Positions 2,946 to 64,000 of a DNA stretch of 64,000 bases are shown one piece after another; the first letter of the stretch is position 1, and the number at the start of each line of letters is the position of its first letter. This stretch comes from Xestospongia bergquistia. Taxonomy: Eukaryota; Porifera; Demospongiae; Haplosclerida; Petrosiidae. The DNA is taken from contig OZ014411.1 in the NCBI GenBank assembly GCA_963965975.1, forward strand, positions 19,186,446 to 19,250,445, written 5' to 3'. Below the pieces are notes generated by a model. That model ran no database searches and had not been told where the DNA came from. It worked only from the letters and a program-made list of their open reading frames with translations. Made by a program: the position numbers and the translations under genes.

Positions 2946-3117
2946 TACAGGTTGTATTGGAAGAATCAAAAGGAAGAATGCATTTATAAGTATAACGGTA
3001 TAAATTATTGTTACTGTACCTTCTCCTCCTCCTTTTGTTGCTCCTTTAAAAACTGCATTGTTACTATCTATTATGTGAATGTATATGCACACAATAAAAA
3101 CTAAAATGTGGACTCAC

Positions 3118-16764: not shown

Positions 16765-16800
16765 TTTGATAGAAAAGGTCAAGTTAAGGGGGGACCAGTA

Positions 16801-17004
16801 GTGAAGATGAAAATAGACACGGAATGTGCTAGGACTACCATCCACACCAGTCTAATTCCTCCTGTATGCATCAAAGAGAGCATGATTGAGATGATAGCAG
16901 CTACTGGAGAAACTCATAATTATAAGTTGCCTGACTTAATTCTTACGATCAATGGTGAACGATATAATGTGGAAGCAGCTGTGGCTGAAAGGACCTACCA
17001 CTAG
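16801..17004 (+). pseudogene. Aspartic protease domain of the Gmr1-like element
   Basis: The stretch KMKIDTECARTTIH corresponds to the D-T-G active-site loop of retrotransposon proteases, with Gly changed to Glu. It is followed by typical short strands (IEMIAATGETHNY, DLILTINGERYNV). It sits directly after gag and before integrase, as expected for the first pol domain. The altered active-site triad and the stop at 17004 make it inactive. Confidence 0.65.
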
Positions 17005-17429
17005 TAAAATTCATTGTTGATTGACTGACGAAAGACCAGTTGGCAGCATACACAACCAAAGTGAACAGTGTTGAGGACACCAAAGGTGATGATAACCCAA
17101 CTAGCCCACCAGAGGATAACCTTGCTGTAATGACCAGAGGTCAGGCACTGACACAGATGGAGGCCGAGGAGCAAACCCAATGAGAAGAACAAGAGGCTCA
17201 GGGAAGACATACCCCGATTCAGGAGGAATGGTTGGGAGCAGACTTCGCGGACGACTTGTTTGAAGACTCACAATCAGAATGTGAACAGATGACATGAGCA
17301 CAAAAGAGAGAGAATGCTCAACATTATCTCAAAAAAGTGGCGGGGTTAATCATGACTGATATGGTAAAAGAATAGCAGGAAGATCTGGAGATCCAACGCT
17401 GAAAGAAGCAAGAAGATCCAACTAGAGTT

Positions 17430-18560
17430 ATAGAGAGAAACGGAATATTACTATGACAATGGAGTCCAAGAGCAGAACCACATCAAGTAATCGAGCAGCT
17501 AGTGTTGCCTAGAGGACAACGACAGCCAGTACTCAAACTAGCACATGATATGCCGATTGCAGGACATTTAGGAAAGGAAAGACGATCCGTCGGATATTGC
17601 AGTGATTTTACTGGCCTACAATTTACCACGACATTAGTGAACATTGCAAGAGATGCCCAGAGGGTCAACTAACCAAGCCAGTACGAGGTAGGAAGGCCCC
17701 ACTGATACAGTTGCCTATAATGGGAGAGCCATTTAAACGGATTGCAGTGAGACCTCTACCAAAGACAAAGCAAGGACACTGATACCTACTAGTTATTTGT
17801 GACTACACAACCAGATACCCAGAAGCCTACCCAATAAAGAAGTTGCACCTGTAGTCGTTACTGAACTCATTAACTTATTCTCAAGGCATGGAATACCAGA
17901 GGAGACCCTTACTGATCAAGGAACCAATTTTATAACAGGAATTATACAAGGCAATCAGAGTAAAATCCATCAAGACATCCCCATACCATCTTCAGACAGA
18001 TGAGTTGATTGAACAGTTCTACCAAACCCTGAAACAGATGACGCAACGACTTATTAAAGGAGAAGGTCGAGAGTGGAACAAACTGATGCCTTTTGTGCTG
18101 TTTGCCTACAGGGAAGTACCACAGGCATCCACAGGACTTTCACCATTTGAACTTATTTATGGACAAGATGTTCAAGGACCATTGGATGTATTTTAAAAGG
18201 AAAATGGATACAACCTATGCAGAGGACGATGATATAATAAACACTATGTGAATAAAGTTCATGAACGGCTAAAGACAGCTAAGGAGATTGTATATGAGAA
18301 CATGACTAAGGCTCGGAAAAAGCAGAAAAAAATGGTATGATCAGAAAGCCCAAGAGCTGTATCTTTTGAGAAGGAGATCGAGTTATGGTTTTACTACTGA
18401 CCCTGCCAGAGAAACTGCTAGCCAAGTGGAGAGGACCATATGAAATCACCAAGAAGGTTGGGAAGGTTAACTATGAAATATAACTTACTGATGGACGAAT
18501 CAGAAGAAAATCTTTCACGTCAACATGCTGAAACCATGGAAGGAAGCAGCAGAGTCATTT
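17430..18560 (+). pseudogene. Gypsy-like integrase placed before RT
   Basis: Readable blocks across frames are an HHCC-like start (LAHDMPIAGHLGKE, later CPEGQLTKPVRG), the catalytic core with CDYTTRYPEAYP (first Asp), ETLTDQGTNF (second Asp) and a LIEQFYQTLKQM block holding the Glu, then FAYREVPQASTGLSPFELIY and a C-terminal basic region with YEITKKVGKVNYEI-like residues. This is the gypsy integrase pattern, not copia. Multiple stops and shifts interrupt it. Its position upstream of reverse transcriptase is the notable point. Confidence 0.8.
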
Positions 18561-18599
18561 TTGAATGTTATTGAGGATGAAGAGGAAGAGATAACCCAG

Positions 18600-19925
18600 T
18601 AGCAACAGGAAGTATATAAAGTTCAATATGGTACAGACTTAACGATAGAGCAGAGGGATCAACTACAGAAGATGCTAAAAGAATTTCTGGAACTAATTAC
18701 CAAAGAGCCAGGGAAGACGACAAAAGTAAAACATCGAATATTGACAAACGATCAACTGCTGATACCTTACAGGATACCACCTGCTCTAAGAGAATGGTAA
18801 TTGTGAGGAAAAAGATGGAAGCAATCGCATATGTGGAATATCGAAAGTTGAATGTAGCTACTAAATTTGACGCCTACCGCATGCATCGGATTGACGAACT
18901 ACTAGACAATATCGGACAGTCTAAATACTTGACTATGTTGGACTTAGCAAAGGGGTACTGGCAAGTACCAAAGGCCGAGAAGGACAAAGGGAAAACAACA
19001 TTTTCAAGTCCATTGGGGCTACTACAATTAACAACTATGCCATTTGGACTGAGTGGGGCACCGGCTACGTTCCAATGACTTATGCACCAAGTACTCAGAG
19101 GAACAGAAGCCTACACAGGAGTCTACCTGGACAACATTATCATCTACGGAGACCCCTAGGACCAACATCTGGAGAATATACGAAATGTATTTGCAACAAG
19201 CTGGACTGACCATCAAGCTTAAGAAATGCAGTTTTGGTGACAGTGAATGCATCTACTTGGGACACCAGACTGGAAAAGGAGGAGTCTGACCTGAAGCTAC
19301 AAAAGTACAAGCAATCAATGATATGCTCAGACCCAGAACAAAGAAGGAAGTATGAAGCTTCTTAGGAATGATTGGGTATTATAGACGATTTATCAGGGAT
19401 TTTGCTACGAAAGCAGAACCACTTACCCAATTGACTAAGAAAGGAGAGCCGGAGAACTTAATTGGACTACCATTGAGGACGAAGCATTTGAGACCCTCAA
19501 ACAGGACCTTAGCAGCTCAGTGATGCTAAGAACCCAGACTTTACAGCAACTTTTCAGCTACAGACAAATACTTCCAACGTAGGAGTTGGTGCTGTACTGA
19601 GTCAAGGAGGATGCCAAGATCAGCCCATAGCCTACTTTAGTTGAAAATTGTTGGAATGTGAAAAGAAATATTCTACCATCGAGAAGGAATGCTTAGCAAT
19701 ACTGTTGGGAATTAAAGCATTTGCTACCTACTTACTAGGAAAACCTTTCTTACTACAGACAGACAACCGTGCACTTACCTGGTTGATGACTTTAAAAGAT
19801 AAGAATGCAAGACTGACTAGGTGGAGTTTAGCGTTACAAACATACACATTTGAAAACCAACATAGGAAAGGATGAGATAACACAAATGCCGATGTGCTGT
19901 CACGATTACCTCAAGAACCATGCTT
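18600..19925 (+). pseudogene. Reverse transcriptase and RNase H of the Gmr1-like element
   Basis: Plus-strand blocks follow the gypsy RT order: MLDLAKGYWQVP (18935-18970), TTMPFGLSGAPATFQ (19030-19075), then the catalytic YLDN (19127-19138, normally YxDD) and IIIYGDP. RNase H follows with VGAVLSQGG, AYFS, a KEYSTIEKECLA-like block and LQTDNRALTWL (19756-19788), ending NADVLSRLPQE. The Asp-to-Asn change in YLDN and several stops make this copy inactive. RT plus RNase H would turn element RNA into DNA. Confidence 0.88.
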
Positions 19926-22389: not shown

Positions 22390-23700
22390 AAATGATAGTA
22401 GTGACAGTGGTGATAGTAATAGTAGTAACATTAGAGACACTAGGAGCTGTAGTGATTGTATTGACATTGGTGATTTTGATGACACTGGTAACAGTAGTGA
22501 CATTAGAAACACTAGAAACAGTATGAGAGTAGTGACAGTGGTGGCTGTGATGACAATGGTGACTGTAGTGACAGTGGTAACAGTAGTGACACTAGGAACT
22601 ATATGACTGTGATGACAATGGTGATTGTAGTTACACTGGTAACAGTAGTGACATTGGAGACACTAGAAACAGTATGAGAGTGGTGACAGTGGTGGATGAG
22701 ATGACAATGGTGACTGTAGTGACAGTGGTAACAGTAGTAACATTAGAGAGACTAGGAACTGTGTGACTGATGACAGTGGTGATTGTAGTGACACTGGTAA
22801 TAGTAGTGACATTAGAGACACTAGAAACAGTATGAGAGTGGTGACAGTGGTGACTGTGATGACTGACAATGATGACTGTAGTGACAGTGGTAACAGTAGT
22901 CAGTAGTGACATAGAGACACTAGGAACAGTAGTGATTTTACTGAGAGTGATGACATGATGGCAATGGTGATTGTAGTGACAGTGGTAACAGTAGTGAGAT
23001 TAGAGACAATGGAACAGTTGTGATTGTACTGACAGTGGTGACAATGGTAGTAATAGTGACAGTGCTGACAATGGTGATACTAGTGACATTAGAGATGCTA
23101 GGAACAGTAGTGATTTTATTGACAGTAGCGACAGTGGTGATAGTAGTAATAGTGGTAAAATTAATAACACCAGAGACACTAAGAACAGTTGTGATTATAC
23201 TGACAGTGGTGATAATGGTAGTAGTAGTGACAATGGTGATACTAGAGACTAGGAACAGTAGTGATATTGGTGATACTAACGACACTAGTGATAGTGACAG
23301 TGGTGTTACTAGTGTCATTGAATAGACTAGTGACATTGCTGAGTACCAGTTATGATATTAGTTACACGAGTGATACTAGTGCCAATGTGCCATTGCAGGC
23401 ATTAGGGAGAATAGAGACAGTGGTGATAACTAGTGACAATGGAGACACTATTGACACCTGTGATAGTAATGACAGTGATGACAGTTAGTGATAGTGGTGA
23501 CAGTGGTGATACTAGTGACTGAGCATCAATAATTTAATAATGGTGATACTAGTGAGACTAGTGATAGTACAACTGTGGTAATAGTAGTGACGGTGGAGAC
23601 ACTAGTGGCAATAGGTAATACTGAGTGACAGTTGTGATATTAGTGATAAGAGGGACACTAGTGACAACAGACACGTTAGCGAGCAACATTGAGAGTAGTG
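22390..23700. repeat. Trinucleotide-rich minisatellite (GTGACAGTGGTGA-type)
   Basis: About 1.3 kb is built from variants of GTGACAGTGGTGA and GTAGTGACATTAGAGACACT, which keep a three-base rhythm. A higher-order unit is visible in the left half: GTATGAGAG recurs at 22521, 22672 and 22830, spaced 151 and 158 bp. The right half is more diverged and richer in ACTAGTGA. The regular triplet phase leaves long open frames on both strands that read as Val/Thr or Ser/Asp/Asn repeats. These are a by-product of the repeat. Confidence 0.92.
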
Positions 23701-44686: not shown

Positions 44687-47600
44687 ATGGCTGCAGTTGA
44701 AACAGATTATAATTCACGCAGCTTGGACAGATCATCTATGAAGATAAAGCGAAAACCATCAAGAAAAAAACCTTCCAACACTTTGCCAGTTCCATTGAAA
44801 TCAGGTAGTCTAGAAGATGTCACCATCACAGGGACTCAAGTTAAAGAAATCCCTGTTGACTTTCCGGTCAATATGGATGCATTGCTAAATCGAACTGATC
44901 AAGTCATGGACATTGAGTTAAGAGAGAATGGTAGCAATGACCACTTCCATCGTGCTGTTGAAGGCAAAGTCATTCCAAGTCGAGAGGCCATCAGAAGATT
45001 GAGTACCAAGAAACGAAAAAGTGCAGACAAACTACTTGATGATGAGATAACAAAAGGTTTGACTGACTCCAATCTCTCAGAGTCAGAGACTCAAGATGAA
45101 ATTACACCTATCATAAAGTTAAACACTGCAGATGAATTGACATCTTCAGAGTTTGCAGATGGTCTTGGTGAAGTCATAAGAATCCATCATTGTAATGGCA
45201 TGAAACTTCTATCAAATAATAGAGACAGTACTGACTCAGGCATAGCTATATCGGAAATGAATGACAGAGAAGCTGTTACACATGGTAACTCTACAGAAAA
45301 CTCACCTACCGATACAAACATCACATTAAGAGATCATGTTGCTCCTGCTGCTAATCACTTAAAACTAATAAAAGGCTCACCTTTTGATTCACTAAAATAT
45401 GGTACAAAAAGACATAGAGACTCCATGTTACTGTCTCAACTCTGTGTTGTCACAGTAACCTTACCAGCTGATATTCAGCAAGGACAGAAAGGACGTGGTG
45501 CTACTTTAAAATTTCGTTTTTCTCCATATACCCAAATTGAGACATTGAGAGTAGCTATTTTAAAGGTACATACTGTTATAATCCTTGTCATGTGTATTGT
45601 GTCTAGTTTGATAATGTTGATATTGCTATCGTAGATGTAGATACAAATTTGTGTTTGATAACTGTATCTGTCTAAAATCAACTGTCAAAATATACAAGAA
45701 CATTAGCATTATTGGTTTGTGAGTGATAACTACATGTGTATTCCTCACATGTACAGCATGTGTTGATATTTCCCATTAGTGATATAAGTGGTTGATAAGG
45801 AAATTTTTGTCTTTGATCTTAGCATGTTTTTTGCCTTCCATTTTGTATCTCCCTCCTGTAGTATGGTAGTAATAGTCTACATAGTTAACATTCCTAGTGC
45901 CTAATTTTGAAAGACCAGGCTAGTAGTCTAATCTGTACATTATGCTATTAGAATAGCAGTTATCATACCTTCTGCATACCAGCTTGTATTATCATATATA
46001 AACTAGTCAGTAAGAACATCTGATGTTTGCTTTGTGTACCTCACTTCCCATGACAACCTTTTTATACTCACCTGTTTAATGTATTCTTACTTGATGGACT
46101 CTGCTTTAAAGTTTAGTAACATTGTCTTTGATTAATACAATTTTATGTATTATCTATCTGTATATACATCAAGTAAATTGGGAGGATTGTCTTTTTATTG
46201 AAATAACTGGATACTTAATTTAAAACCGTCTGTTTGGGTTTATATTGGACTGCCTCAGTCATATCAAATCTGCCTCCTTAGTCTTAAAGTCTTGTTTTGT
46301 TATTTTACTAAACAGTGAATGATGTTAAGATATCATGTTTTGTATATTAAGGAGGTGGGGAAATACTTACCTATTGTTCAAGGGTATACAATACAATTTA
46401 TTTACATGTCTGTTAATATAAAATTCTTTTTTAATTTTTTAGCAATTCCATGAGAGATTTGAGATATCGGTCGAAAATTTATCAAAATTACATCTATGTC
46501 GATACTTGGAGGTGAGTACAATCGCTCTGTGATGATACAATACATTAAATTTGTGTTACATTTGTCCTTGGACTTTATTGGTAAATCATTATTACCATTA
46601 ATAGACTTTCTGTATTCCCACTTAGTAGCCAGCAACAAATTTAGCTAACAAGTACTGTTATGTATATTCAATGATGTAATTGCCATTAGACTGTGCTATT
46701 CATTGTTATGGTAACTAATGCTCAGATTACCTGTTTGGGGTAGGTGATGGCATACAGTATATGGTCTTACAGTTAGTTCAGTGACTGCACTGTTGGCTCT
46801 AAAACTGTCTGGTAGCTCTTGTGTAATGTAAATGGGACTTCAAAGTATTTCTATATCAACTGTTTATTAGGAATTAAGATCAGACTAATTTGCTTTGTGA
46901 TGTAACATGACATGTCTCCATGCTGAGACTGCAGTGCTGATAACTGGTAAATACAGCTGCAGAGAGTTGATATCATTATGTAACAGTGCTGCTTCATGAT
47001 TAATTGAAACTTAACTTAGTGACTGTCTAGTGGGTGTTGTAAACTGTTAATCATTCATTTGTTATAAATGGTAGAAATATGCACAATAAATCCAGATATG
47101 GTATGTGTAAGTGCAGTAATGTACTTGCCTTAATAAACATTGCATAACTTTGCCTGCAGTCATTCAGACTATGATGTACTGTGTTGGAATGTAGTGCACT
47201 AATTTTTGTATTTAATCTGAAGAGACTAATGGACAGACATGGTATGTATATCCCATTCATGGGCTATTGCATTACTCTTTAAAGCTTTTTCCGTTATGGC
47301 TATTGAGTCAATATCAGGTTATGCTTGAGTGAATATTGTGTGACTTGATATCCTTTTATTGATATATGCCTTTTAGCTTTGTGTAAGAAGTACTGATATC
47401 ACGTAGTTATAGTAGATGATGAATGGAGATAATGGAGTGATATCATTAACAAAGTATGCATGCATTTTAAAATTGTTTTCAGCCAATTTTTTATTAGCTT
47501 GTAGTATCAAAGTAGTAACACCCTATGCATAATGTAACCACAAACAGTCTAAATGAGCTGAGTACCTTCTATAGTAAACAGTGTAGGACTTGATATACAC

Positions 47601-50600
47601 AATTTGTGTTCAGGTCACACCCTTAAAAGGAGATTTAAAAGACTGGTCGTGTTGTCAGTTTGTAGGGACAGTGAACTGAATTGACCACCACCTTATTGGT
47701 ATAACAACAATAGTAAAGGTTTACAATTAGTCTTATTAATTGTCTGCGTCTGTTAGAGTGCTTCCTTCTAAATTAAAATGCTTCTAATCAAATATTTGTC
47801 CTCCCACCTCCACTTCAGATACTTGATATTGATGGAAAGGAATGCTTTGTTCCACTGGGAGTTAGTGAAGGAGTGTGTCTCTTGATAATTAAGGAAATTT
47901 ATTTGTCTTCAATTATATTTATTATATAGCGTGGCTTGATAAATCGGAATTCCTTAAGATAATATTATATATTATCTTTGTGGCATCACATAATATCTAT
48001 TATGACATCATTGGCAACTCCTACTGTTATTAGTATCTTGTTTATATAGTTGTTATTAATCTTCCCTTTTTGCAGGATGAAGAAGGTTGGGAATATTTGG
48101 AAGAAGACCAAGCTTTACATAACTTCAATTTACCTGTTGAGGTTAGCTTGATATGTATAATTGTTAATACAAAAACCAATCCACAAACTATTAGATACAT
48201 GTATAAAGTTGTGTTTATTTCCTTACATAAAACATTCTAATGTACTATCATAGTTTTATTGAGAGCATTAACTTGTGTATTTCATGAGAATCTAGCAAAT
48301 ATTAACAGATCATCAGTCTCCTTCTTGTTATTGGAATGTACTGTATGATGTCTTATTAAGGCTTGTGTCTTCAAAATTCATTAGGGTGGTCTTAATTAGA
48401 TAACTTGACATGTAGAGCTATATGTTGTCAAAATAGTACATAATAGTTATAATTTATTGTGCGAACATTGCTCTCCTGCATGAAGCAATATTAAATTAGT
48501 TGATGTTAGTTAGAAGAAGACTGAGTGTTTGTCATGTTGTCTGTTAAATATGTCACCTGTTTGTACTTACCCAGACTGTCAATATGGGTCAAAGCTAACT
48601 GTGATGTGTCATATCCACTTGGTCATCACTAGTGGTCACCTAATAGGCTTCAGGGTCTTTTGAAAATAAAACTATTTTATCTCAGTGTGTTCATTAGAAA
48701 GGTTACTGTAACCTGAGTGTTTAAGCTCAGGTGACCAGGTGTCATAATATAGATAATCTGGTTATCACTTATTTGTGATAACCTGGTATTAAGAGGTGGG
48801 CTGTACTTGTTAAGTTTTATAACATTAATCATTAGCACCTCCTGATTTTTATATGAGCCTTGCTCAAACCTAGAGGAATAACTTTTTTTGTCTTATGTTT
48901 TCTCTATTCTTTGCCAGCATTAATCCTATTTGATTGAGGAGATATATACTTAATAATGTCATACCATATTCATAACTGATGGTATACATTGTGTAATGTC
49001 TGATAGAGGTGACTAGTGTTATTATATGCATACTTAACATATTTCTTTAGTGCCTGTCTCTGTCATGGTGTTGTCTATCACAGTACTTACCCTCTGGTCA
49101 GGTGGATATGTGAAACTATTCTGTTTATGTTGTTATAGCTTTTGACTTGTTTTCAAAACACACATTTTAGTGCTTGTTCATGAACTGAATGCTTTTCATA
49201 CATATGTATGACACAACAACAAATTACTATTGATTAGTGTTGGTAATTTTATGATGTTAGTATAGTAGAGAACACATTGTGTGTGGTTTTAAAGTTTTCC
49301 TTTGTAGGAATACATACTGATTGTTCTAATACACAACAAATTATTGAAGCCTGCAATAGTTACCACTATTTGATAAAGAATATGTTTAGTTTGCAAACAT
49401 ACTCTATGAAACACTTATGGTTTTATTATTATATGTATGATGAGAACTCTTGATATCATGATCGTTTTAATGGCTACTCCAGATGAGATGAGTTGACCAC
49501 AATCATCCGGTAGTACTTCACCTCTGTACAATAATTGACATGTAATATATGTATACTTTCTCCCACATAATTGAGTTGGGTATGCAGAGTGTAATAAGAT
49601 CTTGTCACTACTCTCTACCACATATTGAAAATATTTCTTGTTTTTATAGTGCAAGCTTGAACTTAAACCACTGGAGCCCGTCTACTCTGACGTACGGGTT
49701 GTGATACCACAGCTTGAGGTTAGCTTATCTGTCCAGTTTGACCAGTTCAGTCTGGTTGGAGATGTCCTTCATCAAGTCTTGGATTTAGCTCAACCTCAAT
49801 TAGATCCACGAGAAGGATACACCCTCTATCATGTTAGATTAAGAATGAGGTCAGTATATACTATATAATTACTTACAGTATTGTAGTAGTGTCCCCATAT
49901 GTATTGATTGTTTAGCGAATTGAGAATTACTTACTCAGAATTCCACTCAAACGATTGGATTAAGTTACCGTTGAGTTTGTGCCTTCTAATTGTCATGCCA
50001 TTTGATATTCCAGCTGTTTAGCAGGAACTGTTTTAGAAATTGTTTGAATCTAAAGATCTGTTAGAAATTGGTTTAAGCTGAATAGTAAATTAGATTAATA
50101 AGGAGGCATTTCTCATAACAGTGTCATGGTTTGGTACATATTCGCTACATATATGATAGTTATTATTATCTAATTTATTTATTGGTGTTCACCATGACTG
50201 AATATACATGTGTGGTGGTGTCATGTCAAAATGTTTTCTAGTCATCATAATCTTTGGTATGTGAGATTAATAGTACCACACAAGACCTAGCTCAAAACTG
50301 TTGTGATAATCATTGGACTCACAATTAGTTAATATGGCATGTATGTCACTGGCACATGTCAAGGATTAGTGTAGGATGAGTCAGTATGTACTATTTCTGC
50401 AGAATGAATCCTTCAGTTAAGATATTGAGCTAGTAATATATATTATTGGAGACAATCATGTGATATGGTTGTTGTTAGCATTTTGAAATCATTCTCTCTT
50501 TTTCTTGCAGGATGGATCTTGCTGAAAGTATGATGTTTTATTCCATACTACCAACAGATGTTTTAGAATGTCGTGTAAGTCATCATTGTATTATACATTC

Positions 50601-53600
50601 AGTAGAGATTACTCAATCTTATATAACTAACAATGTTGTTCATAATTATCTGACTGTTTTTTTCCTAAAAAGAGAGACAATTGTACACAGAAAAACACAA
50701 AACGTATGTAATGCTATTTATGATACCATGTAGTGACTACATTTTCACATTACTTTGTGTATTTGACTGTTGATTAGGTAAGACAAATTGTCTTTGATTA
50801 TAGAAATCTCTGGTATGAAGAGGAAAAGCTATAGCATATAGTTCTTCTGAAAACACAATTGACTCATTTAATAAGTTAAAATTAGTTTAACTCATGACTA
50901 CTGTCAATTCAAAATAACGATACACAATTCAATTAGTAAAATCTGGGACACCTGTTAAAGTAAAAACAACACACACATATATATGGGTACCCTGTTCTCC
51001 ACACCTGTTGATCTTGTTCAACCTGTCCTCAGTTTAATCATGAACTGTTACCATAGCAACATGTAGTAATAGTATTGATTACACTATCAAAAGTAACTCC
51101 TTTGTTGTGACTGTTTGAGAATGAAAATGTGGGTTGAAAATATGGTGCTAGTATTCATCGCAAAAGAGGATTATAAACTCATTATTTACTGTTGATAACC
51201 ACCCTTGTGGTATGTTTGTTAATGCCAGAGGTCAACAAGAACCTCCTTGTCTAATAAAAACAATTACATTGTATAGTTTCATGGTAAATTCATGTCTCTT
51301 GTTAAGTAAATTGATTAATACTCTAGATAAAAAAGTTATTATCTAGTGCTTTTAGTGAGCAGAATTTAAGACACAATTACTGAAGTCATGACATTTGTGA
51401 AATACTTTGTCTTTATAGTGATACTCTATTTTCTAGTGGGAGGTATATTGATATATACTAGTGGGAATAGAATCGTGAATACCTGATCATAGTAACTTGA
51501 GTCATAACAATATTTATGACAAGACTATCTCAAGTACTCATACTAAACAAAAAGAGAGTATCACTGATAGCCCCAAAGTTTGGTAACATCAAAAGAGTTA
51601 AAAATCTATTTTGGTTGACTTGTTAAATAGATTTTGATGCCATCTTTGAGTTTCTCTAAATACAAATTCAGTATCTAATCACTTCATCATGTATTTAACA
51701 CCACATAATATTGTTTACTTAGTACAACTTCACAAGAAGAGGTGGGTCAGTTGAATCAGCTTTATTTCCAAATTATCTTATCATTTTAACACCTGTATTT
51801 ACTACTGAAATCATTTGACTTAAGTCTTTTCTTTTGAGAAATTATGGCTTGATATGCCATTAAAAATTGTTATGTCTTGTTGGTCCATTATCAGGGAATA
51901 TTAATAAGTTGTGGTTAGCTATATCTCTTAGGCAAATTAGTCTAGTCATCTTAAGTGAAAATGTTTTATTGTTTGGTATTGAGATAGTAAATGTTGTATT
52001 CAAACTGTGACACAGATACTAAAAATAGTTTTATTGTCAGCCTAAGATGGTGATCAATTGATGCATTCTGTTTGATGAATAGACCCACTAATGTTTACAC
52101 CACACTCAAATCTCCCTAAAAAGGCACTCTTCAAAGTTGCTAACATCAATGTCAGTAATGTTATACCCAGTGTACAATGACTCCATCAGCTTGACTGGTA
52201 TTGGTTGTAGCTATGATGTAGTTCACATTACCAAACATGGGTGTGGACTATGTCTAGGAACAATAGTCTTGACTGCTCATTTAAAGGACCTGCAAACTTT
52301 TAACGTAAATAGTTTATACTAGTAGGCCCTGAGCTACCATTACTGCTCTCAAATTGACTTCTGTTTCTCTCTCTCTCTTTGTCCTCTGTAGTTGTCTGTT
52401 GGTAAACTACATGAACAATCTGTTATATTAACTATCAAGATACCTGCTATTCAGAGTAGTAGAAAAGTTAAGGTGTGTTTGGATGAAACTGTGGGAGAGT
52501 TAATGAGGTAAAATATTTAACATACACAATGAATGTTATGTTTACACCCACAAAGTTTGAAGACAAGCTTAATGCCCTCTTTTTAATGGAGTTAGGAAGA
52601 GTGTGTAGTTTTAATTTTTAATGTGAACTCACTGTTTGTTAAATGATAGTGTGTGAGAATTGTTATCTTAATTGTTCTGTATCAGATAAAACTGGATCAA
52701 CATTCTCAGTTGTTGAGTAAACCTGTCTCTGTACAGTAGTAAACTATTAGTCTTTGTAGTTAAGTTATTATAATAACTAGCAATAACTATGTGTTGGGCA
52801 GGTGGTAAAAGTGAGTACTACATATGAAAGCAGTGAAGTCCTCATTCACTAGACATTGTACAATATTTGAAACAAAGCTAGTGTTGTTAGTTGTTTTTAA
52901 AATTGTTTTTATGAAACCTGAAAGTCTTTATTACTATATCACTTTACACATGTGTTGTCATGTGACAGCCACTATTATGTCATATCTTGTTTATCAACAG
53001 CACTTTGATGCGCAGAGTTCCAGAACCTGACAGTAATCGTTGGGCTCATATGTCATTATATCTTCGATCTAAAGAGTTCACAGTACCTGGTATTTGGATG
53101 GAGGACTACAAATTTCTAGCAGCATACAAACTGAAACCAACAGTGAGTACTATATATTGCATAATTGTAAACACACAGGTGGATACACTGTGATATGTCG
53201 TGTAACGAACTAATCTTGCTATCCTGTTAAATAAATATGCAAAGCTGGCACCCATATAATTACTATCATATAGTAACTGGTTGTCTTGTTAGACATATGT
53301 TTGCTTATCCTTTTGACCTAGGACAAAGTAGCCATGGTTTCACCTGGTTCCTGTATGGTTTTCATATGGTTTCATGTAGTAAACCAAAACATACCACTAC
53401 CTTTAACTGGGTATGGCTGCTTTAAAACCATAGGACCAGCCTTCTCTCAGCTGAGCTTCAAAGCTGTCCCATCTGGCATTTGTAATAAAATTAAAGCTAG
53501 CTTTGAAGGTACTCCCTTGTGGGAAGCCTTGCTTTAACTATGTCTTCTGTCTCCATATATCAGTTATTTGGCTGCTAATCAAATGTTTTTCTATGGTTTA

Positions 53601-56600
53601 GCTTAGAACTGATAACTATCATAGAAGATAAAACTAAATTTTATGATTTTCAATGGAATTGGACTGACTAATGTCAACATGTTTTGTTCACTACTTGGAC
53701 TATTATAATGGAGTAATAACATAGTCTGCTATGTATTGATAGTGGTCTCTTTGATATATAAAACTGCTTCATGTACATGTCAGCAGAACCAGATGAAATA
53801 ACACTTTTTAGTGGTAACTAGGTAATTTCTGGCTATGAATGGATGATAATGGATAACAGTCTTTGATCTTGTCATCAAAGATGACCCTGTTAGTCATACA
53901 AATAAGATACCTAGCTTATGATATGGTATAGATTGTATGGACTATGTAATATATACAATTTATGGGTATAGAATCTGTTCAAAGCACTGACTGAATATAC
54001 ATAAAATATACTATGATGACAAGGTGTGCTACTGTGTTTAATTTGACCCTTCAGTAACAGTTAGTCCTAGTAACTTCATGTAATTGTACTACTTTTAATT
54101 CATTTTTATTTTTAGGATGTAATTGAATTTCGTCCTAAATATCGTCCTATGAAGTTTGAGTTAAGAGTATATCCTCACGATCATGAAGGAGATAATAATG
54201 TGGTCTATGCTACACCAGAACTGCTCATAGCTCAAGACAGCTTTGTATCTGATGTCATTGATCTCCTCTGTAATTCATGGTATGTGAAATATCCTTTCTA
54301 ATAAGCTAATTCTGATAGTGAATTCTTTGTTTAGCAATAGTACACTCCATTGTGCACTTTTTACGTGTTATTGTCTGTCCTCCCCTCACTCTAGCTCATT
54401 GGAGTATGACCCTCGTCTCTATGGTCTCTATCTCCATGATGACCAACAGTTACCCAATGAGATGTCCATGTGGGATTATCTGGATGATACTGTTCCAGGT
54501 TATCAGGACAGTCTAGTGTTACATATGGTATACAAACCAGTCCTTGTTTGCTTGGAAGGAGAGGAAGAGAGGTAAGCAAAAAGAACATAATGTAGTCTGT
54601 AAGTCCTGATCATATCACTTTATTGCAGCTGTTATTTGCATGTCTTTTATTATCAACCTCTTATTTTTTTGATGTAGCAGTTGTAATACTCTCAATGTTG
54701 ACTTCAGTCAACCCTCACAAGTTATAAGAGATATACTCTGTCGAAGATATGGCTGTCGTTTTCACAATCAATATGGACTTAGATACGAAGGTAACGGTAA
54801 GCTTTGTCTTTGTCTTTCAATGTATTATGGTAGTAGCTACTTGTTTACTTGTGTTAATAATAGCTTGATACTTTCCTTGAAGGAAGTTTATTTGTGTAAA
54901 AGCTTGTGATTGTTCTGAACCACAACAATATATTTCCTACATTTAATAAAATAGACTACACTTGACTTGCGGCTGTAATGAATAAAGTATCATTTTGTCC
55001 ACCTAGGTATTGTACTCAACTTGTCAAAGTCCTTACACAATCAAGGTGTTTTGGAACAAGAGAAAGTGACTCTAATATTATTAGATGATGCTGACATTGT
55101 ACCCACTTCACCTATTAAAACTCAACTGATAAGAGTAGACTCAGCCAGTGAATCAATGGAGGTATGTCCTGTTACAAATGGAACTATCTCACCACTATAC
55201 TAAAGTTACTAGTGCTAATATATGTACAGAACAATAAGTAGTGATAGCACTTATTATGTTACAATATAATTATGTATTCTTCTCTCTCTAGACTGAGGCT
55301 GGTAGTCGAGAATCTCTTGCGTTAGTTGAAGATGGATGTAATATTTGGGATGAAGGATCAGATTGTGAACTCAACATTAGATTTGGTAAGAGACGGTCTG
55401 GAGAAGAAGTAGTTGTTGGTGCCACTTTCAACAAATTGGTAGAGAGAATCACTTCTGTCACAGATCATGGTAAGTGTGATTGTTATGCACTTTTGTGCAG
55501 TGAGAACTTATCTTTTTTTCTCCCTACATTCAGATCTTGAATTTGTCAAGACTTTCTTACTCACATATCAATCATTTGCAACTCCTGATAAACTGTTAAG
55601 AAAATTGATAGAGAGATATAATGTAGTCCGTCCTGGTGTTATGCCACTGGTAGAATTTGCTCAAATGAGACAAACAATACAAGCTCGTGTTATTAATGCT
55701 CTCAGATTGTGGGTGGAATATGGAGTTGATTTTAAAGGTTAGTCTCATAAAGAGGCTTGTCATTTTGTGGACATAATAATGAATATAATAAAATGCACTT
55801 CTTTTGTTAGCTATACAAACTATATTTGATAACTAATCTCTTTGAACATGTTTGTGGTTTGTTTTGCATCATACCATGGATTGTTGTGTATGTTATTGAT
55901 TTTTTCACTAGTTAGTAAACCACTTGTGTTTGTTTCAGTCATAATCCATTCCATCAGTGTTGTTTATTATCAATTATACTTTGTTATTGTTTAAGTAAGT
56001 GATGTGTCTCTTTGTTTGTAGATAACATCACACTACAAAACAACATCCTTCATTTCATCAGTACTGTTCTAGTACTCGATCATCCTCGTCTCTGTCGACC
56101 ACTGAGGACAAACATCCTCTCTATCAGAGGAGTTATACAAAAGAGAAATGTTAAAATGTTCAGAGATCCACCGCCACCAGTAAAGGTACATATATGTAGT
56201 TATTATAGAAAATAAATGACACATTCATCACATTTAGTACTTGTATTATATTGCTGTACATTATGGAGTTGATTTCTTTTTTTAGTTCCCTGTAAATCCT
56301 GGACCTGTTTTGAGTGTTTTTGACTTTGATCCTGAAGAGATTGCTCGTCAATTAACAGTTATTGATTTCTCCTTGTTTGCCAAAATCAAGCCAGCAGAAT
56401 TGCTGAATCAGGTAAGATATAACATCATATGCATGATAACATTGTTAGTGTTCATTTGGTGGGGGAGTGCTGTGAATTAGCTTGTATATTTTGCTTTAAA
56501 TAACATCCCTTGTTTCTTTTACAGGCATGGCAAAAAGCCAAGTACAAACATCGTGCACAAAACATCTTAAGATTAGTTGAAAGAATGAACAACTTGACAT

Positions 56601-57602
56601 TATGGGTTGCTACTACTATCCTCTCACAAAAGGATGTTCAACAAAGAGCAAAACGAATAACTGATTTTGTTCAAGTATGCATTGTAAGTTTATATCCATT
56701 AATATATCCATTAATAAATCCATTAATAATATTATCATTACTACACAAACCCTGTATTTTATCTTGGAATTTACTTTGATTTTTTTCTCTTTATAGCACC
56801 TTCATCAAATGCATAACTTCTGTACTCTGATGGCTATTCTCAATGGTTTGGCGCATCACTCCATTAATAGACTGAGTAAGAGTTTTGGTAAAGTTGACAA
56901 AGTCATCAGACAACGTTTAAATGAAATGCAAGAGATGGCAAGACCAGGTGACAACTATCGCTTACTGAGAGAAGATCTTAAAAAATCAAGCAATCCATGT
57001 ATACCTTACCTGTAAGTGTGTTAATGAATGCTTCTGTATTATCATAATGTAAAGTATTATTAATGTATGCTTAGCTGTTAGTGTCACTTTGAAAGAGAAA
57101 GGAAATGAACATTGTGTACAACCAAATTGATGTAGCCTATTGTCTCAATACAATAAAGTAATAGAAATGACAAAAGGAAGTGTATGTTGCATTGAATAGG
57201 AGAAAGATGTTGTCAAGTATCTTCACATCACCTTCTGTTGTAATAATGTATCTCTCTTCCTTATTTAGTGGTCTGTATATGTCTGACTTGACATTCTTGG
57301 ATAATGGCAACCCTAATTTTCACTCAGACAATCTCATCAATTTCTCAAAGTGTCGACTTATATATCATCAAATAAGAGATCTCATTTTAAGACAAGTAAG
57401 AATTGTATCAACTATAACAACTATGTTGTACTGACAGCATCTAGCACAACACTTATTGATTGTTTTGTTATTTCTTTCTTAGGACAAATCTTATAATTTT
57501 GAAGAGGTCCCAGCACTTCACGAAAGTTTACTCAAATTCACATTTCTTGATGATGACACACTCTATGAGGTCTCAATACAGAGGGAACCAAGGTACAACT
57601 AA
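44687..57602 (+). CDS. Ras-family GEF (RasGEF-N + CDC25) with five N-terminal ubiquitin-fold modules, talin F0-like
   Basis: Twenty coding exons give one 1,161-codon frame: 44687-45565, 46443-46511, 47819-47860, 48076-48141, 49650-49849, 50511-50574, 52392-52507, 53001-53142, 54116-54279, 54395-54571, 54678-54796, 55007-55161, 55292-55469, 55534-55737, 56022-56185, 56286-56411, 56525-56683, 56797-57011, 57269-57395, 57483-57602. CDC25 domains swap GDP for GTP on Ras/Rap GTPases. Residues 1-250 look disordered and hold RRLS (103-106, PKA-like). Residues about 251-355, 360-445, 448-535, 536-638 and 640-705 look like ubiquitin-fold units. The third, with GIWMEDYKFLAAYKL, DVIEFRPKYRP and MKFEL, resembles the talin F0-F1 junction. 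RasGEF-N (about 780-900) includes FLLTYQSFATPDKL; CDC25 (about 925-1155) includes DFSLFAKIKPAELLNQAW, MAILNGL, KSFGKV and SDLTFLDNGNPN. Alternative splicing at 57594 would end the protein at 57732. No orthologue is named with confidence. Confidence 0.88.
48695..48790. repeat. Two adjacent hairpins in a RasGEF intron
   Basis: CCTGAGTGTTTAAGCTCAGG and then GGTTATCAC, a short loop, GTGATAACC form two perfect or near-perfect stems in 95 bp. They may be the remains of a small foldback element. No terminal duplication seen. Confidence 0.4.
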
Positions 57603-58468: not shown

Positions 58469-61400
58469 TTACAGGTTGGTGATCTTGTCATATTCAACAT
58501 CATCCTGAGTCATCTGGTTAAATGCAGGCACCGGATTTCCAACCTTAACTTCTTTACTAACTAAGTACTCGACTTGGTTCTTCTCATTGACAAGATCCTT
58601 AAAACTTGAATAGTCATTTTCATTCTTTGCCATTACATATCCTTTGTTCTCATCATCAGGCACAAGGTGAAAGACTGGATAATCTCCATCTTCATCAAAT
58701 ATAGGAGAGTTACGATATATAGTATGCATGGTATGTGCTTCATACAAGTTCTCTGATCCTGTCTTATTAAACTCATACTTTCCTCTTGTCCTCCTCTTTC
58801 TAATACATTGACAACATATGACAGTAATTGTTAGACATATAACTAGTAACAGTGCTCCACCTACTGCACTACAAGCTATGATTAGAATAAAATACTTCTC
58901 TATGATACTAGTCTTAGTGGGTGGTTCTGTAGGCACTACAATAGGGTAATTTGGATCTTGTTGAACTGAACTGAGGATAAGATTGTTTCCACGAAATGAA
59001 AAATAAAGGATGTTGGAGTTTGATATGTTTTGTATGTCATTTGCAAACATGGACAGTGTATTTGCACTGTTACTGGTGACAAAGAAAGTAACAATAATAC
59101 TACCTTCATATAATGATACATTGTATACCAATACATTGCGATATCTCTCTTGGATGTGTGCTATTAAAGCTGACTTGAATTCATCTTCATAGTTTCTAAC
59201 AGTGTCATTGTAACTGTTATTGTATGTTACAATGAAACGAGTGAATGGAAACTCCTCAACTACAAAGGCATTGCTGTCAATAGGTTGAGGTAGTTGATTG
59301 TTAGAAGAGGCAGGATTTGTAAAAACAGAAAATTGAATTTTGTATGAGCCTGCACTTTTGACATGGATGTCTTCAAACTGAGCCACTCCTTGTTTAATAT
59401 TTACAGTAATATCCTGCTCATACCTCTGTCCAGTGGAAATTAAGATAATAGCAGCAGTCATAAACCATTGTCGTCCCCTCCATCCTAAGTTTGTAGGAAC
59501 AGTATTAGTATTGCTATCCAAAATGTGAGCAGTTACAGTAGATGAGAAGGGATATGTTGTATTGGTAACTGATGGTGGCTGAGAGATGACTTGAAGGTAG
59601 AACTGTCTTATTTGAATGTTGATAACACTACTACTACTGGTAAGAGAGAAGTTAGCAGTAAGAGGGTATGTGATGTCAAATTGTAGATGATATGTTCCAG
59701 GATGACTAAAGAGGAGATCAGAGAACTGTGCTATACCATTTCCCATATTGACAGTAGAATTCATTAGAAAAGCACCAGTGGGCTTTGATATCAATGATAC
59801 TGTTAACTGCCAAGGTTGTCCTACACCTAATGTAGACACTACAAGGCCAGCCCCATCATACATTGCTACTTTAATTGGAGAAGTTAATAGAATACCTTCA
59901 ACACCCGCTGAAGGAAGATGGGCGATACCGAGTCTTGTTGGAATACTTAATATAACTGGATTAGTATCATTCCTTTCTTCTTCTTCCTTTTGAAGTTGTT
60001 GATCATAAAATGTTGTCAAGTTAGCTGTACTATTATCTCCAGGCTGAGGTCCGCCAGTTACATTTGTGGCTCTAACTCCTTGTGTTGGATCAGTTCGTAT
60101 CGGCAGTGGCTCAATGACAACAGCATCTAAAATATCATAACCTATATTTTTTGATAGTTCTCCAGTTTGAATGACTTCACCAACACGAGTTGTGATATTA
60201 AGAAGCTCCTTGTAGACTGTGTCATCCTGTGGATTTGATCCAGTTTGATTGTTATAACTTCCATCTGTTCCATTGACATTTGGTGTTGTAGTGTCATTAG
60301 AAGGTGCTGCACCTATTTCAAATTCAACCCTGGTACGTGCTGTTTCTCGTTTGCGGCCTCCACTTTCAGAAATTACATTGACAATTCTGATACGATTTGG
60401 TGTTATGCCAAGGAGCAGGGCTAAGTTTTGAATTAGGTTGACTTCAAAAAACTCATCCACAGTAACAGGAGGAAGATCAATACCAAGTTGGATGACTTGA
60501 GTAGTTTCAATTCTAACTGGTGTGTCACCTTTGATCACAATATGTAATCTTTTAGTGTTGTGATCATAATAGTTTGTTCCATGGCTATCAGAGAGTGTTG
60601 GAATGAAATTGTCACCACGTTCATATCGAAGGTTGCCATCCTTCATATAGCCATTAGTTGGAATGATATACTCAGTACCAATATATACATCCAGTCTTTG
60701 TGGGTTAGTATATATTATAGCTACAACAAGACCTTGAGAGTCATCGGCATTGAGAAGATAAAGGTTTGTCTTTTGAGGATTGGTACTAGTCATACCAATA
60801 GTGTAGTTTAGACCAGTTGATACTATAGCATAGAAAGTTGATATACGTTCTTGACATGTGTATCCACCACACCATCCATGATCTTGAGGACCATTTATCA
60901 AATCTATATACCCATTAGCACTGACGCCAATAGGAGAGAGCCGACGAATTTCTGTATCAGCATCAAGACTTTCTATGACAAACATCATGTGATCTATATT
61001 GGTACAGTGGTAAGAGTTCCATTCTGGTTCCCACTGACAATCACTAGCATTGACTCCATATATGCCTTTATATGGATAGAGTACACCAGGATCAATTTTA
61101 CTACCGGTTGGAGTAGCTAACATTGTTCTTGGAATTCGATAGTCACCCAAACCACGTCTACGATCACCATCCCATTCAAATTCTGACTTTGAAATGAGGG
61201 AATTCAAACCTGTAGAGCCTGTGAAAGAGCCATCGAGATCTCGAATGAGAATTTTCTTTAATGCATCACAATCCATATCAACACAGTCTGAAGGATTGAC
61301 ACTTCCAAGTATTGGGTTGTGATTGAAGAATTTAGAAACTTTGTTCACTGACAGAAATGAGATTCCTTTTGTCCAAACAGGATGTTGACAGTCTTCAGAT

Positions 61401-64000
61401 TTAGGATGTGTCATCAATGCTACTTCTTTCATAGAAGAGCAGTGAGTACCAAAGTTACAAAAGCTAACATTACTGAGTTTAGTGAGGCCTTTGATTGCAG
61501 GATAATTTGGAACATCTGACCATGGGGACTTAGGAAAGTGACCAGGACCTGATGTAAATGAAGACAGAATTATACCCACATGTCCTCTCCAAGGACTTTG
61601 GATGCCTGAATGTGATCTGGCATGATAAGCAATGGTTGGTTTAAAACTGTACTCTGTGCAATTAGTAGCACCAGAATTAATACTGGAAATAATCTCTGAG
61701 TCTTTTATAACAACAGTTTTAGTACTGACTTGATGAGATAGAGAAGCAGGTCCAATTACAGCAGTGAATATGGCAGCATAATTGTTAACAAATGTAGATT
61801 CTGTAACAAAAACACCAGCTTTAGAGTATGAGAAAAGGCCATAGTGATAACAGCTATATATTGTGAAGCCATGGAAAGATGAACACCCACTTTCATCACC
61901 AACAAAGTGACCATCATTGTAACCCACATGAATACCATGTAATGTGGTATGTGCTATGTTGTTTTTCCAGGTAGGACTGAAGTTGGATGATATACAGTTC
62001 TCTCCATTAGTATGGTAACCAGCCTTAGCTCCACCAGCAGCTGAATTTCCAATCAAAACATAGTTGCTGGCTTTAGCAAGTTCATAGTTGGCTGTCCACT
62101 CAGTATTCCAAGGTTCATTACGACCATTATATGTTCCAGGAAATAAAGCTACCACTGCTAGATTTTGAATCAACTGATGGTCACTGCCTGTAATATATAG
62201 AGAGGGTCCTATAGTACGATGGACTACGTTATTTGTGATTGACATTCCTTTAGTCCCAAATACACCAATTCCTGTATTGTAGCCTTTATGAAAACTACAG
62301 CTTTTGACATATGAACTGTTGTCCTTAACTTGACCAATATTAAGAAATGCCAGTGAGTATCTAGGATCAAAACTTTCCACAAAGCCTTCTTGACCACATC
62401 CTTTAAATTCAACTCCTTCTAGTTGAGCTGATCCAGTATATTGTATTGTACCAGAGATGTCAACAAAATAAGTACCAACAAGAACACGACAACCATATGA
62501 TTGCTGATCTGAAACATCAACAGCAGCATTAGGATGTGTTCCTAGAATTTTGATGTTTCGAGAGAGAAGTCCAACTTCAGCACTGATATTGACTGAGCAG
62601 GAGTTTGTGTTGTGAACTCCTCCAAGATGACTATAAGTTAAAGGACTATTAAGACTAAGAGTTAGTCCATCATTACTGATACTAGTAATAGTACGTTCTT
62701 CTGTTTGTCCTGCTTCATAGAAAGTGGATGCAATAACAATTTCTTCTCCTACTTGCCAGTCTACAGCTTGGCTTAATACAACTTGAGTGTCTCCTTCCTT
62801 TGCTGTTTGAGCCAAGAAGGTCCAAGTGGGAGAGCGATCTTTACCATGTAAGCTTAGTTGACCAAACACTCCAATACCTTTAGCACCCAAAACAGGTCCA
62901 AGACTGGGGAGACGATATTCTGGTGAATTTAAGTCACCATTAAGTATAATTGTTAATTGATGTTGAAATGGCATGTCTTCAGACCCAGCAATAAGTCGTC
63001 CATTGTCAATTAAAATCAAGTTTGCCTCTAAAATGTGGTCACGCTCATCTAGAAATTCTAGTCCTCCACAGATAGATAAAGTTTTAACACGAGGCAAAGG
63101 AACATCAACCAGAATATATAAACTACAGTTAATGTACACATCTGTATCATTTTGTGGTATCAGTTGATTAGGCCATATAGATTGGTCAGACCAAAGATAG
63201 GTGACATTAGGACGACCTGGAGGTAGAGGGCTTGGTGGCTCAGGTGGAGGAGGTGGAATACAGTTCTCGTAGAAACACCGATAAGATGTAAAGGAAACTG
63301 AAACAATCCTAGAACAGGTTGGGTTACTACCATTTACATAATATGTGACAGATGTCTCATTGTTATTGACATACCAATCTCCTAACTGTGATGACCCACC
63401 AGGTGGTATGACCAAACTGGCATTCTTTTCTTCTTTATTGATCTTTATATAGTCCACACTCTTGTTAAAATCATGTTGTATCCAAAGATAATCAGATGTT
63501 GTAATACCAGAATAAAAAGAGGAATAAGATATGTTATTAAACCTTTCTCCTTCATCCCAATCAAGTTGATATATTTCTTTGATGGGTAATAAAGCCATGT
63601 AGCCAGGTCCAAATAGAAGTCGTTTGAACACATATTCTAATTGAAGAATACCATGTTGACTGGTGACATTAAGATTTCTTGTTGTGAGAGATGATGGAGT
63701 AGTGTTAGTGAGAACAAAACGAGCAAAGTGGATTTCATCATCACAAACACTTCCTCTGACAGCTCCAAAACTTGAAGCAGAGTGATTACTACAATGAGGA
63801 GAAGGTAAAATAGTAGAAGTAGGTAAAAGAGCTCCTCCAACATTGCCAGTTAGTGTACCATCCATATCTCTGAAGACTTGTTCATGTTCCCATTTCCAAG
63901 TTGCAATATTAGGACTGTTATCAAACACTATTTTCTCAAACCTAGTTTCAAATCCTCCTTGTTTTGCTCCACAATGTGAACAAGCTTGTAGCGTGTAACA
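58469..64000 (-). CDS. Fibrocystin-L-like (PKHD1L1-type) transmembrane protein, 5' end beyond the window
   Basis: One uninterrupted frame of at least 1,840 codons; it stays open to base 64000, so the start lies outside. Counted from codon 63928: a DMDGTLTG module (about 20-27), a Pro-rich linker (about 225), a G8 domain (about 240-360, WSDQSIWP to VLGAKGIGVFG), a right-handed beta-helix region with PbH1-type repeats (about 480-800), a second DLDGSFTG module (about 905), an MMFVIESLDADTEIRRLSP block with INGPQDHGWCGGYTC, Ig-like or filamin-like repeats (about 1350-1570), a SEA-like juxtamembrane domain, one membrane span (about 1678-1708) and a 110-residue cytoplasmic tail starting RKRRTRGKYEF. 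This matches fibrocystin-L/CEMIP-type surface proteins, which act in adhesion or carbohydrate binding. The tail has seven tyrosines, an ITIM-like VEYDKI and a class I PDZ-type C-terminus TNL. It lacks introns here, unlike its split neighbours and the many-exon vertebrate genes. Confidence 0.9.
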   Translation of the reverse strand, partial: CYTLQACSHCGAKQGGFETRFEKIVFDNSPNIATWKWEHEQVFRDMDGTLTGNVGGALLPTSTILPSPHCSNHSASSFGAVRGSVCDDEIHFARFVLTNTTPSSLTTRNLNVTSQHGILQLEYVFKRLLFGPGYMALLPIKEIYQLDWDEGERFNNISYSSFYSGITTSDYLWIQHDFNKSVDYIKINKEEKNASLVIPPGGSSQLGDWYVNNNETSVTYYVNGSNPTCSRIVSVSFTSYRCFYENCIPPPPPEPPSPLPPGRPNVTYLWSDQSIWPNQLIPQNDTDVYINCSLYILVDVPLPRVKTLSICGGLEFLDERDHILEANLILIDNGRLIAGSEDMPFQHQLTIILNGDLNSPEYRLPSLGPVLGAKGIGVFGQLSLHGKDRSPTWTFLAQTAKEGDTQVVLSQAVDWQVGEEIVIASTFYEAGQTEERTITSISNDGLTLSLNSPLTYSHLGGVHNTNSCSVNISAEVGLLSRNIKILGTHPNAAVDVSDQQSYGCRVLVGTYFVDISGTIQYTGSAQLEGVEFKGCGQEGFVESFDPRYSLAFLNIGQVKDNSSYVKSCSFHKGYNTGIGVFGTKGMSITNNVVHRTIGPSLYITGSDHQLIQNLAVVALFPGTYNGRNEPWNTEWTANYELAKASNYVLIGNSAAGGAKAGYHTNGENCISSNFSPTWKNNIAHTTLHGIHVGYNDGHFVGDESGCSSFHGFTIYSCYHYGLFSYSKAGVFVTESTFVNNYAAIFTAVIGPASLSHQVSTKTVVIKDSEIISSINSGATNCTEYSFKPTIAYHARSHSGIQSPWRGHVGIILSSFTSGPGHFPKSPWSDVPNYPAIKGLTKLSNVSFCNFGTHCSSMKEVALMTHPKSEDCQHPVWTKGISFLSVNKVSKFFNHNPILGSVNPSDCVDMDCDALKKILIRDLDGSFTGSTGLNSLISKSEFEWDGDRRRGLGDYRIPRTMLATPTGSKIDPGVLYPYKGIYGVNASDCQWEPEWNSYHCTNIDHMMFVIESLDADTEIRRLSPIGVSANGYIDLINGPQDHGWCGGYTCQERISTFYAIVSTGLNYTIGMTSTNPQKTNLYLLNADDSQGLVVAIIYTNPQRLDVYIGTEYIIPTNGYMKDGNLRYERGDNFIPTLSDSHGTNYYDHNTKRLHIVIKGDTPVRIETTQVIQLGIDLPPVTVDEFFEVNLIQNLALLLGITPNRIRIVNVISESGGRKRETARTRVEFEIGAAPSNDTTTPNVNGTDGSYNNQTGSNPQDDTVYKELLNITTRVGEVIQTGELSKNIGYDILDAVVIEPLPIRTDPTQGVRATNVTGGPQPGDNSTANLTTFYDQQLQKEEEERNDTNPVILSIPTRLGIAHLPSAGVEGILLTSPIKVAMYDGAGLVVSTLGVGQPWQLTVSLISKPTGAFLMNSTVNMGNGIAQFSDLLFSHPGTYHLQFDITYPLTANFSLTSSSSVINIQIRQFYLQVISQPPSVTNTTYPFSSTVTAHILDSNTNTVPTNLGWRGRQWFMTAAIILISTGQRYEQDITVNIKQGVAQFEDIHVKSAGSYKIQFSVFTNPASSNNQLPQPIDSNAFVVEEFPFTRFIVTYNNSYNDTVRNYEDEFKSALIAHIQERYRNVLVYNVSLYEGSIIVTFFVTSNSANTLSMFANDIQNISNSNILYFSFRGNNLILSSVQQDPNYPIVVPTEPPTKTSIIEKYFILIIACSAVGGALLLVICLTITVICCQCIRKRRTRGKYEFNKTGSENLYEAHTMHTIYRNSPIFDEDGDYPVFHLVPDDENKGYVMAKNENDYSSFKDLVNEKNQVEYLVSKEVKVGNPVPAFNQMTQDDVEYDKITNL

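Follow-up and report, generated by a model that had tools for sequence, protein, structure and literature searches.

A predicted sponge RasGEF with talin F0- and F1-like ubiquitin-fold units and its possible placement by Rap1

In a 64,000-nucleotide stretch of contig OZ014411.1 of the sponge Xestospongia bergquistia (the window, within which all positions are counted), we identified a gene on the plus strand at 44687-57602 that is predicted to encode a Ras-family guanine nucleotide exchange factor (GEF) of 1134 residues, in which five ubiquitin-fold units of about 85 residues precede a RasGEF_N (REM) domain and a RasGEF (CDC25) domain. This layout had been proposed in a preliminary description of the same DNA, and it is confirmed here by introns that are GT-AG in 18 of 18 cases and by complete Pfam matches to RasGEF_N and RasGEF. 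Judged by sequence, unit 3 is a clear homologue of the F0 subdomain of the talin head, unit 5 is talin F1-like and unit 2 is weakly F0-like, and the certainty of talin relatedness falls in that order. We propose that the product is a multidomain Ras-family exchange factor that would be placed by Rap1-GTP through its N-terminal talin-head-type units; the binding, substrate, localisation and regulation in this proposal are all predicted, and we consider the odds on it to be about even.

The resemblance of the third unit to talin F0, already suspected in the preliminary description, was supported by profile and solved-structure searches and by a common intron. The spliced protein matched the Pfam model FERM_f0 (PF16511, cut-off 26.9 bits) at 36.3 bits (E 7.1e-9) in two stretches, the best at residues 430-509; unit 3 alone exceeded the cut-off (27.9 bits, E 2.9e-6), and unit 2 alone stayed below it (15.7 bits). 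When the 442-residue ubiquitin-fold half was searched against solved structures, all 16 distinct sequences matched at E up to 10 were talins or talin fusions (one is labelled MKIAA1027, which we take to be talin), with a best whole-sequence E of 2.4e-4 and best-stretch E of 0.0014-0.0047 for the top two. F0 and F1 profiles were also built from three talins, one of which is that of this genome, and each unit was shuffled 2000 times as the control. Against the F0 profile, unit 3 scored 31.4 bits with none of the shuffles as high, followed by unit 2 at 3.4 bits (17/2000 shuffles as high), unit 4 at 1.6 (54/2000) and unit 5 at 0.1 (226/2000). Against the F1 profile, unit 5 scored 12.3 bits (0/2000), unit 3 scored 3.2 (14/2000), unit 2 -0.8 (235/2000) and unit 1 -2.2 (1429/2000). 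Adding unit 3 to the F0 profile raised unit 2 to 12.3 bits (0/2000) and unit 4 to 2.5 (33/2000), and with units 3 and 2 both added unit 4 reached 5.1 bits (8/2000). The hhalign comparison gave P 7.6e-4 for unit 5 with F1 at a probability of only 25%, P 9.5e-4 for unit 2 with F0 at a probability of only 22%, and P 0.016 over 11 columns for unit 4 with F0, and a talin relationship of unit 4 is at most suggestive.

Two further assignments were rejected. The preliminary description had the unit following the third resemble F1, but that unit, unit 4, scored -1.6 bits against the F1 profile (529/2000 shuffles as high; hhalign P 0.65), and it is unit 5 that is F1-like; the RP(L/M)K junction reported after unit 3 is present, although the unit it enters is not F1-like. 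Unit 1 could not be assigned to F0 by profile (0.0 bits, 161/2000 shuffles as high; 114/2000 and 333/2000 with wider profiles, the latter at -0.7 bits with units 3 and 2 added; hhalign P 0.17). Ordinary RA domains or an unrelated fold had been considered beforehand as a challenge to the talin identity, and no RA, PI3K-type or ubiquitin model exceeded its Pfam cut-off in the whole protein or in the units, the best RA scores being 15.4 of 21 bits (unit 4, PF00788) and 16.5 of 27 for RA_2 (whole protein); PI3K_rbd gave 15.7 of 22 (unit 3). Models of the FERM middle and C-terminal parts (F2 and F3) were not among the 10 Pfam families listed at E up to 10 for the whole protein.

The gene runs from an ATG at 44687 to a TAA at 57600-57602 and comprises 19 exons, rather than the 20 first counted, and 18 introns of compatible phases. 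Exons were picked by visual inspection of all three forward frames and of AG/GT splice sites, with the hypothesis known beforehand, and the exon 4 acceptor at 49650 was preferred over an alternative at 49656, which gives the 1134-residue product. The residue numbers first given for unit 3 (448-535) were about 20-25 too high; the unit itself is present, at about residues 421-519. The exons are as follows:

Exon 1, 44687..45565, plus strand: N-terminus, including a basic and presumably disordered stretch, then the first half of unit 1, residues 1-293; a 316-codon open frame with an in-frame stop just upstream
Exon 2, 47819..47860, plus strand: unit 1; 42 nt, the least certain exon; AG/GT, phase 0, used frame best
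Exon 3, 48076..48141, plus strand: unit 1; with the units aligned by eye, its donor coincides with the talin-F0 intron (phase 0)
Exon 4, 49650..49849, plus strand: last part of unit 1, then the bulk of unit 2 (weakly F0-like)
Exon 5, 50511..50574, plus strand: end of unit 2
Exon 6, 52392..52507, plus strand: start of unit 3, the predicted talin F0 homologue (K433, R441)
Exon 7, 53001..53142, plus strand: unit 3 (R461, GIW motif); its donor coincides with the talin-F0 intron, phase 0
Exon 8, 54116..54279, plus strand: last part of unit 3 (DVIEFRPKYRPMK), then the first half of unit 4
Exon 9, 54395..54571, plus strand: second half of unit 4, then the beginning of unit 5
Exon 10, 54681..54796, plus strand: unit 5, talin F1-like (R639 corresponds to talin R118)
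Exon 11, 55007..55161, plus strand: end of unit 5 (LSKSLHNQGV), then linker; its acceptor coincides with the talin-F1 intron, phase 1
Exon 12, 55292..55469, plus strand: linker and start of RasGEF_N (REM; Pfam PF00618, residues 748-844)
Exon 13, 55534..55737, plus strand: RasGEF_N domain (Pfam)
Exon 14, 56022..56185, plus strand: last part of RasGEF_N, then the linker that leads to the catalytic domain
Exon 15, 56286..56411, plus strand: start of RasGEF (CDC25; Pfam PF00617, residues 907-1082)
Exon 16, 56525..56674, plus strand: RasGEF domain (Pfam)
Exon 17, 56797..57011, plus strand: RasGEF domain (Pfam)
Exon 18, 57269..57395, plus strand: RasGEF domain (Pfam)
Exon 19, 57483..57602, plus strand: C-terminal end of the catalytic half, stop TAA

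The genome holds talin, kindlin and Rap1 genes, and two introns of the RasGEF gene coincide with introns of its talin gene (contig C12; splice sites by eye). The talin F0 exon ends in GRWLEQGRTLEYYHLKNG and the next starts with DMLEYRKKTRP, and the unit 3 exon ends in GIWMEDYKFLAAYKLKPT and the next starts with DVIEFRPKYRP; the intron falls at the identical position and in the same phase 0, between LKNG and DMLEY in talin and between LKPT and DVIEF in unit 3. In addition, a phase-1 intron lies in the codon seven residues before KSLREQG in talin F1 and before KSLHNQG in unit 5. Under random placement, an exact coincidence has a chance of 0.023 in the case of unit 3 and of 0.013-0.035 in that of unit 5, depending on the intron numbers assumed; a one-residue slip of register raises these values to 0.07 and 0.10, but motifs fix both registers. 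The remaining introns of the two genes within unit 3/F0 and unit 5/F1 do not coincide. In the kindlin gene of this genome the exon is open through the F0 site, and the F1 acceptor is offset by four bases and in phase 2 (its matching donor was not located). When LEEDQALHNFNL is matched by eye to LEAGKALDYYML, a phase-0 intron of unit 1 also falls at the talin-F0 site; with a register freedom of +-3 residues the chance is about 0.21, and we treat this match as a lead only, by which unit 1 may likewise derive from F0.

The two introns that bound the segment from unit 3 to unit 5, 5/6 and 11/12, are in phase 0, and exons 6-11 therefore make up a symmetrical block whose copying could leave the reading frame intact. 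Tentatively, and at odds clearly short of even, the Rap1-reading F0-F1 head of talin may be a portable animal cassette that was copied as exons, introns included, to a place before a RasGEF and was extended there by F0-like units. No paralogue of the ubiquitin-fold units was found in the same genome. A FERM_f0 scan of this genome matched only the talin gene on C12; the scan missed the RasGEF gene itself because its F0 is cut by introns, so that other split copies could escape it. A search for relatives in prokaryote genomes gave 59 pattern matches, none of which was confirmed, and viral contigs gave none, both as expected.

Zhu et al. (2017; PMC5701058) pair talin F0 K7 with Rap1 E37 and K15/R35 with Rap1 D33, and report that K15A/R35A drastically lowers Rap1 binding; for F1, a review names R118 and R98 as contact residues (PMC9198492). 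The Rap1 of this genome carries the effector loop VEKYDPTIEDSYRK, which contains D33 and E37. In unit 3, the equivalents of K7 and R35 are K433 and R461 in three MAFFT alignments and in the gapless register, and in unit 5 the equivalent of R118 is R639. The equivalent of K15 is R441 in two of four registers, namely the gapless register and MAFFT with unit 2. Part of talin's Rap1-contact residues is thus kept in units 3 and 5, from which Rap1 binding itself is predicted.

The catalytic half matches RasGEF_N at 71.3 bits (2-104 of 106) and RasGEF at 190.1 bits (1-181 of 181), and by these complete domains the protein belongs to the RasGEF (CDC25) exchange factors, with exchange activity predicted. 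In the proposed mechanism, Rap1-GTP at the membrane would bind unit 3, and perhaps unit 5, as it does talin F0 and F1; binding would draw the REM-CDC25 half to Rap1-rich (adhesion) sites of the membrane, perhaps relieving an inhibition of that half as well, and the recruited half would load GTP onto a Ras-family GTPase. Were the substrate Rap, this would give positive feedback, and were it Ras, a Rap-to-Ras relay.

Several observations weigh against this proposal, both in the contact residues and in the catalytic half, and the gene model on which it stands is a prediction from the genomic DNA of one genome. The long F1 loop, the site of talin's lipid-dependent helix, is missing from unit 5 in the alignment with talin F1. 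K15 aligns with V443 when MAFFT is run without unit 2, talin R30 is replaced by S456 in unit 3, and F1 position 98, which is K in the talin chain of the solved-structure match, is N in unit 5. Even for talin, F0 alone binds Rap1b weakly, with a Kd of about 162 uM (PMC5701058).

As to the catalytic half, its 28 matches among solved structures are led by SOS2 (159.9 bits), SOS1 (147.3), 2ije (145.4), which we take to be RasGRF1, and yeast Cdc25 (124.2), followed by RasGRP1 (100.4), RalGPS1 (89.0), RasGRP4 (82.9), Epac2 (80.9), RasGRP2 (67.4) and RGL2 (39.3); C3G and PDZ-GEF are absent from the 28. A RasGEF search of the genome (146 Mb, 21 contigs) gave 40 exon-level matches, which resolved into 20 loci besides that of the window, in 19 regions. 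In a rough CDC25 tree of merged exon pieces, built from 26 rows (the 20 genome loci, the window GEF and five references, with no Epac, PDZ-GEF or RasGRP2 row), 22 were used after L029, L031, L036 and L038 were dropped for having fewer than 120 columns. Three loci paired with references (L034 with SOS, L030 with C3G and L035 with RasGRP1). The window GEF paired with none of SOS, RasGRF1, C3G or RasGRP1 and fell among the other unpaired loci at a support of 0.57; it lay outside the C3G pair, C3G being the only Rap-GEF reference in the tree. By column identity RasGRF1 is the closest reference (75/229), ahead of C3G (72/227), RasGRP1 (70/229), SOS2 (56/200) and SOS1 (51/197), and its nearest row of all is the unassigned locus L023 (53/150). 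Elsewhere in the tree, two RasGEF copies 2.6 kb apart, L028 (G000:C9:2746000-2752500) and L033, have zero branch length between them in the compared pieces, and a near-identical third lies about 74 kb away, perhaps a recent local expansion.

The strongest rival explanation is that the talin-related units no longer bind Rap1; they would then be a structural arm or have lipid, a different GTPase or some adhesion protein as their ligand, with the regulation coming from elsewhere. Unit 3 is identical to talin-1 F0 at just 26 of 89 positions (with one one-residue gap), the residues at R30 and F1 position 98 are lost as described above, unit 2 is basic at the K7 place only, and units 1 and 4 match nothing among solved structures at E 10 (phmmer). 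The homologous kindlin-2 F0 is described in PMC5701058 as not binding Rap1b, but the same text reports that two of talin F0's charges are missing there. By contrast, the equivalents of K7, R35 and R118 are kept here and unit 3 has a strongly basic second strand (SSRKVKV), and we consider a loss of Rap1 binding less likely than not, if the most serious of the alternatives. SOS and Epac commonly adopt closed inactive states, and the units could chiefly be a cis-autoinhibitory cover of the CDC25 site that is opened by Rap1 or by membrane contact, which would make their role one of regulation and not of placement. The units directly precede the linker to REM, and a closed inactive state is described for C3G in an abstract; we regard such a cover as distinctly improbable.

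Least probable by far is that an adjoining talin-head-like gene and a RasGEF gene were joined by hand splicing, as might be feared of a model drawn from genomic DNA by eye with a small and weak exon 2: against this stand the splice sites and phases given above, a codon preference (trained on exons 12-19) that ranks the used frame first among the three for all 11 exons upstream, the lack of a talin F2-F3 match anywhere in the product, a FERM_f0 match that spans introns 6 and 7, so that the exons carrying unit 3 belong together, and a gap of only 130 bases between the halves (exon 11 end at 55161, exon 12 start at 55292) which, with exon 12 having no in-frame ATG, makes a two-gene boundary there unlikely.

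The window contains several other features. The convergent neighbour of the RasGEF gene is a 1843-codon open frame on the minus strand at 58472-64000, with matches to G8 (98.7 bits) and the CEMIP beta-helix (45.9 bits), that reaches the window end. On the plus strand, a frame at 25823-26167 matches Gcd10p (50.5 bits), presumably a tRNA methyltransferase subunit, and a retroelement-like stretch at 16303-19075 has a SCAN match (16303-16761; 31.7 bits, cut-off 27) upstream of a reverse-transcriptase frame (18620-19075; 37.1 bits). On the minus strand are a DDE_1 transposase frame at 3104-4273 (70.9 bits) and a DUF4371 frame at 11738-12304 (53.5 bits), DUF4371 being, we assume, typical of hAT-like elements. 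A 96-base tandem array (5.7 copies, 96% matches) lies at 2108-2654 and a long imperfect TGACAGTGG-type array at 22414-23265.

Talin F0 and F1 are usually regarded as part of integrin-activating heads, and talin introns together with partial Rap1 contacts in a GEF would suggest that the Rap1-reading head has moved between proteins. If the portable-cassette reading is true, the GEF reads Rap1-GTP by talin's module, and signalling at adhesions could bring an exchange factor of its own to those very sites on the membrane. Such a protein would be a natural single-chain Rap sensor and Ras-family activator, and it opens the direct question of whether Rap1-GTP drives such a GEF. No description of an F0-RasGEF fusion was found in the literature searched, in which subscription journals were thinly covered, and the accessible part of PMC2394772 names RasGEF and FERM only as separate hub domains; the novelty of the fusion is accordingly provisional.

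Compared with the talin head, the window protein is alike in that unit 3 exceeds the FERM_f0 cut-off, two introns share position and phase, and several Rap1-contact basic residues occur in units 3 and 5. It differs in having no F2, F3 or rod match, and therefore no integrin-binding part, in an extra unit between F0 and the F1-like unit and more units before, in the lack of the long F1 loop, and in the attached catalytic half. Kindlin F0-F1 has a homologous fold, and unit 3 scores 14.2 bits (0/2000 shuffles as high) against an F0 profile built from two kindlins, but the talin profile gives it 31.4 bits, and the kindlin of this genome has no F0-site intron and an F1 acceptor 4 nt off in another phase. 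With SOS, RasGRF and fungal Cdc25 the protein shares a complete RasGEF_N and RasGEF, and its best solved relatives are SOS2, SOS1 and RasGRF1; unlike them it has no histone-like, DH or PH match, and its CDC25 domain does not pair with theirs in the rough tree. RA-GEF/PDZ-GEF (RAPGEF2/6) and Epac have RA domains plus cNMP-binding, PDZ or DEP domains. They resemble the window protein in logic, with a GTPase-binding ubiquitin-fold domain and a CDC25 domain in one chain, whereas RA, cNMP-binding, PDZ and DEP domains are unmatched in the window protein and the source of its ubiquitin fold appears talin-like. The feedback principle is already known for GEFs, from RA-GEF/PDZ-GEF and from the second Ras site of SOS, and the new element is the talin origin of the putative sensor.

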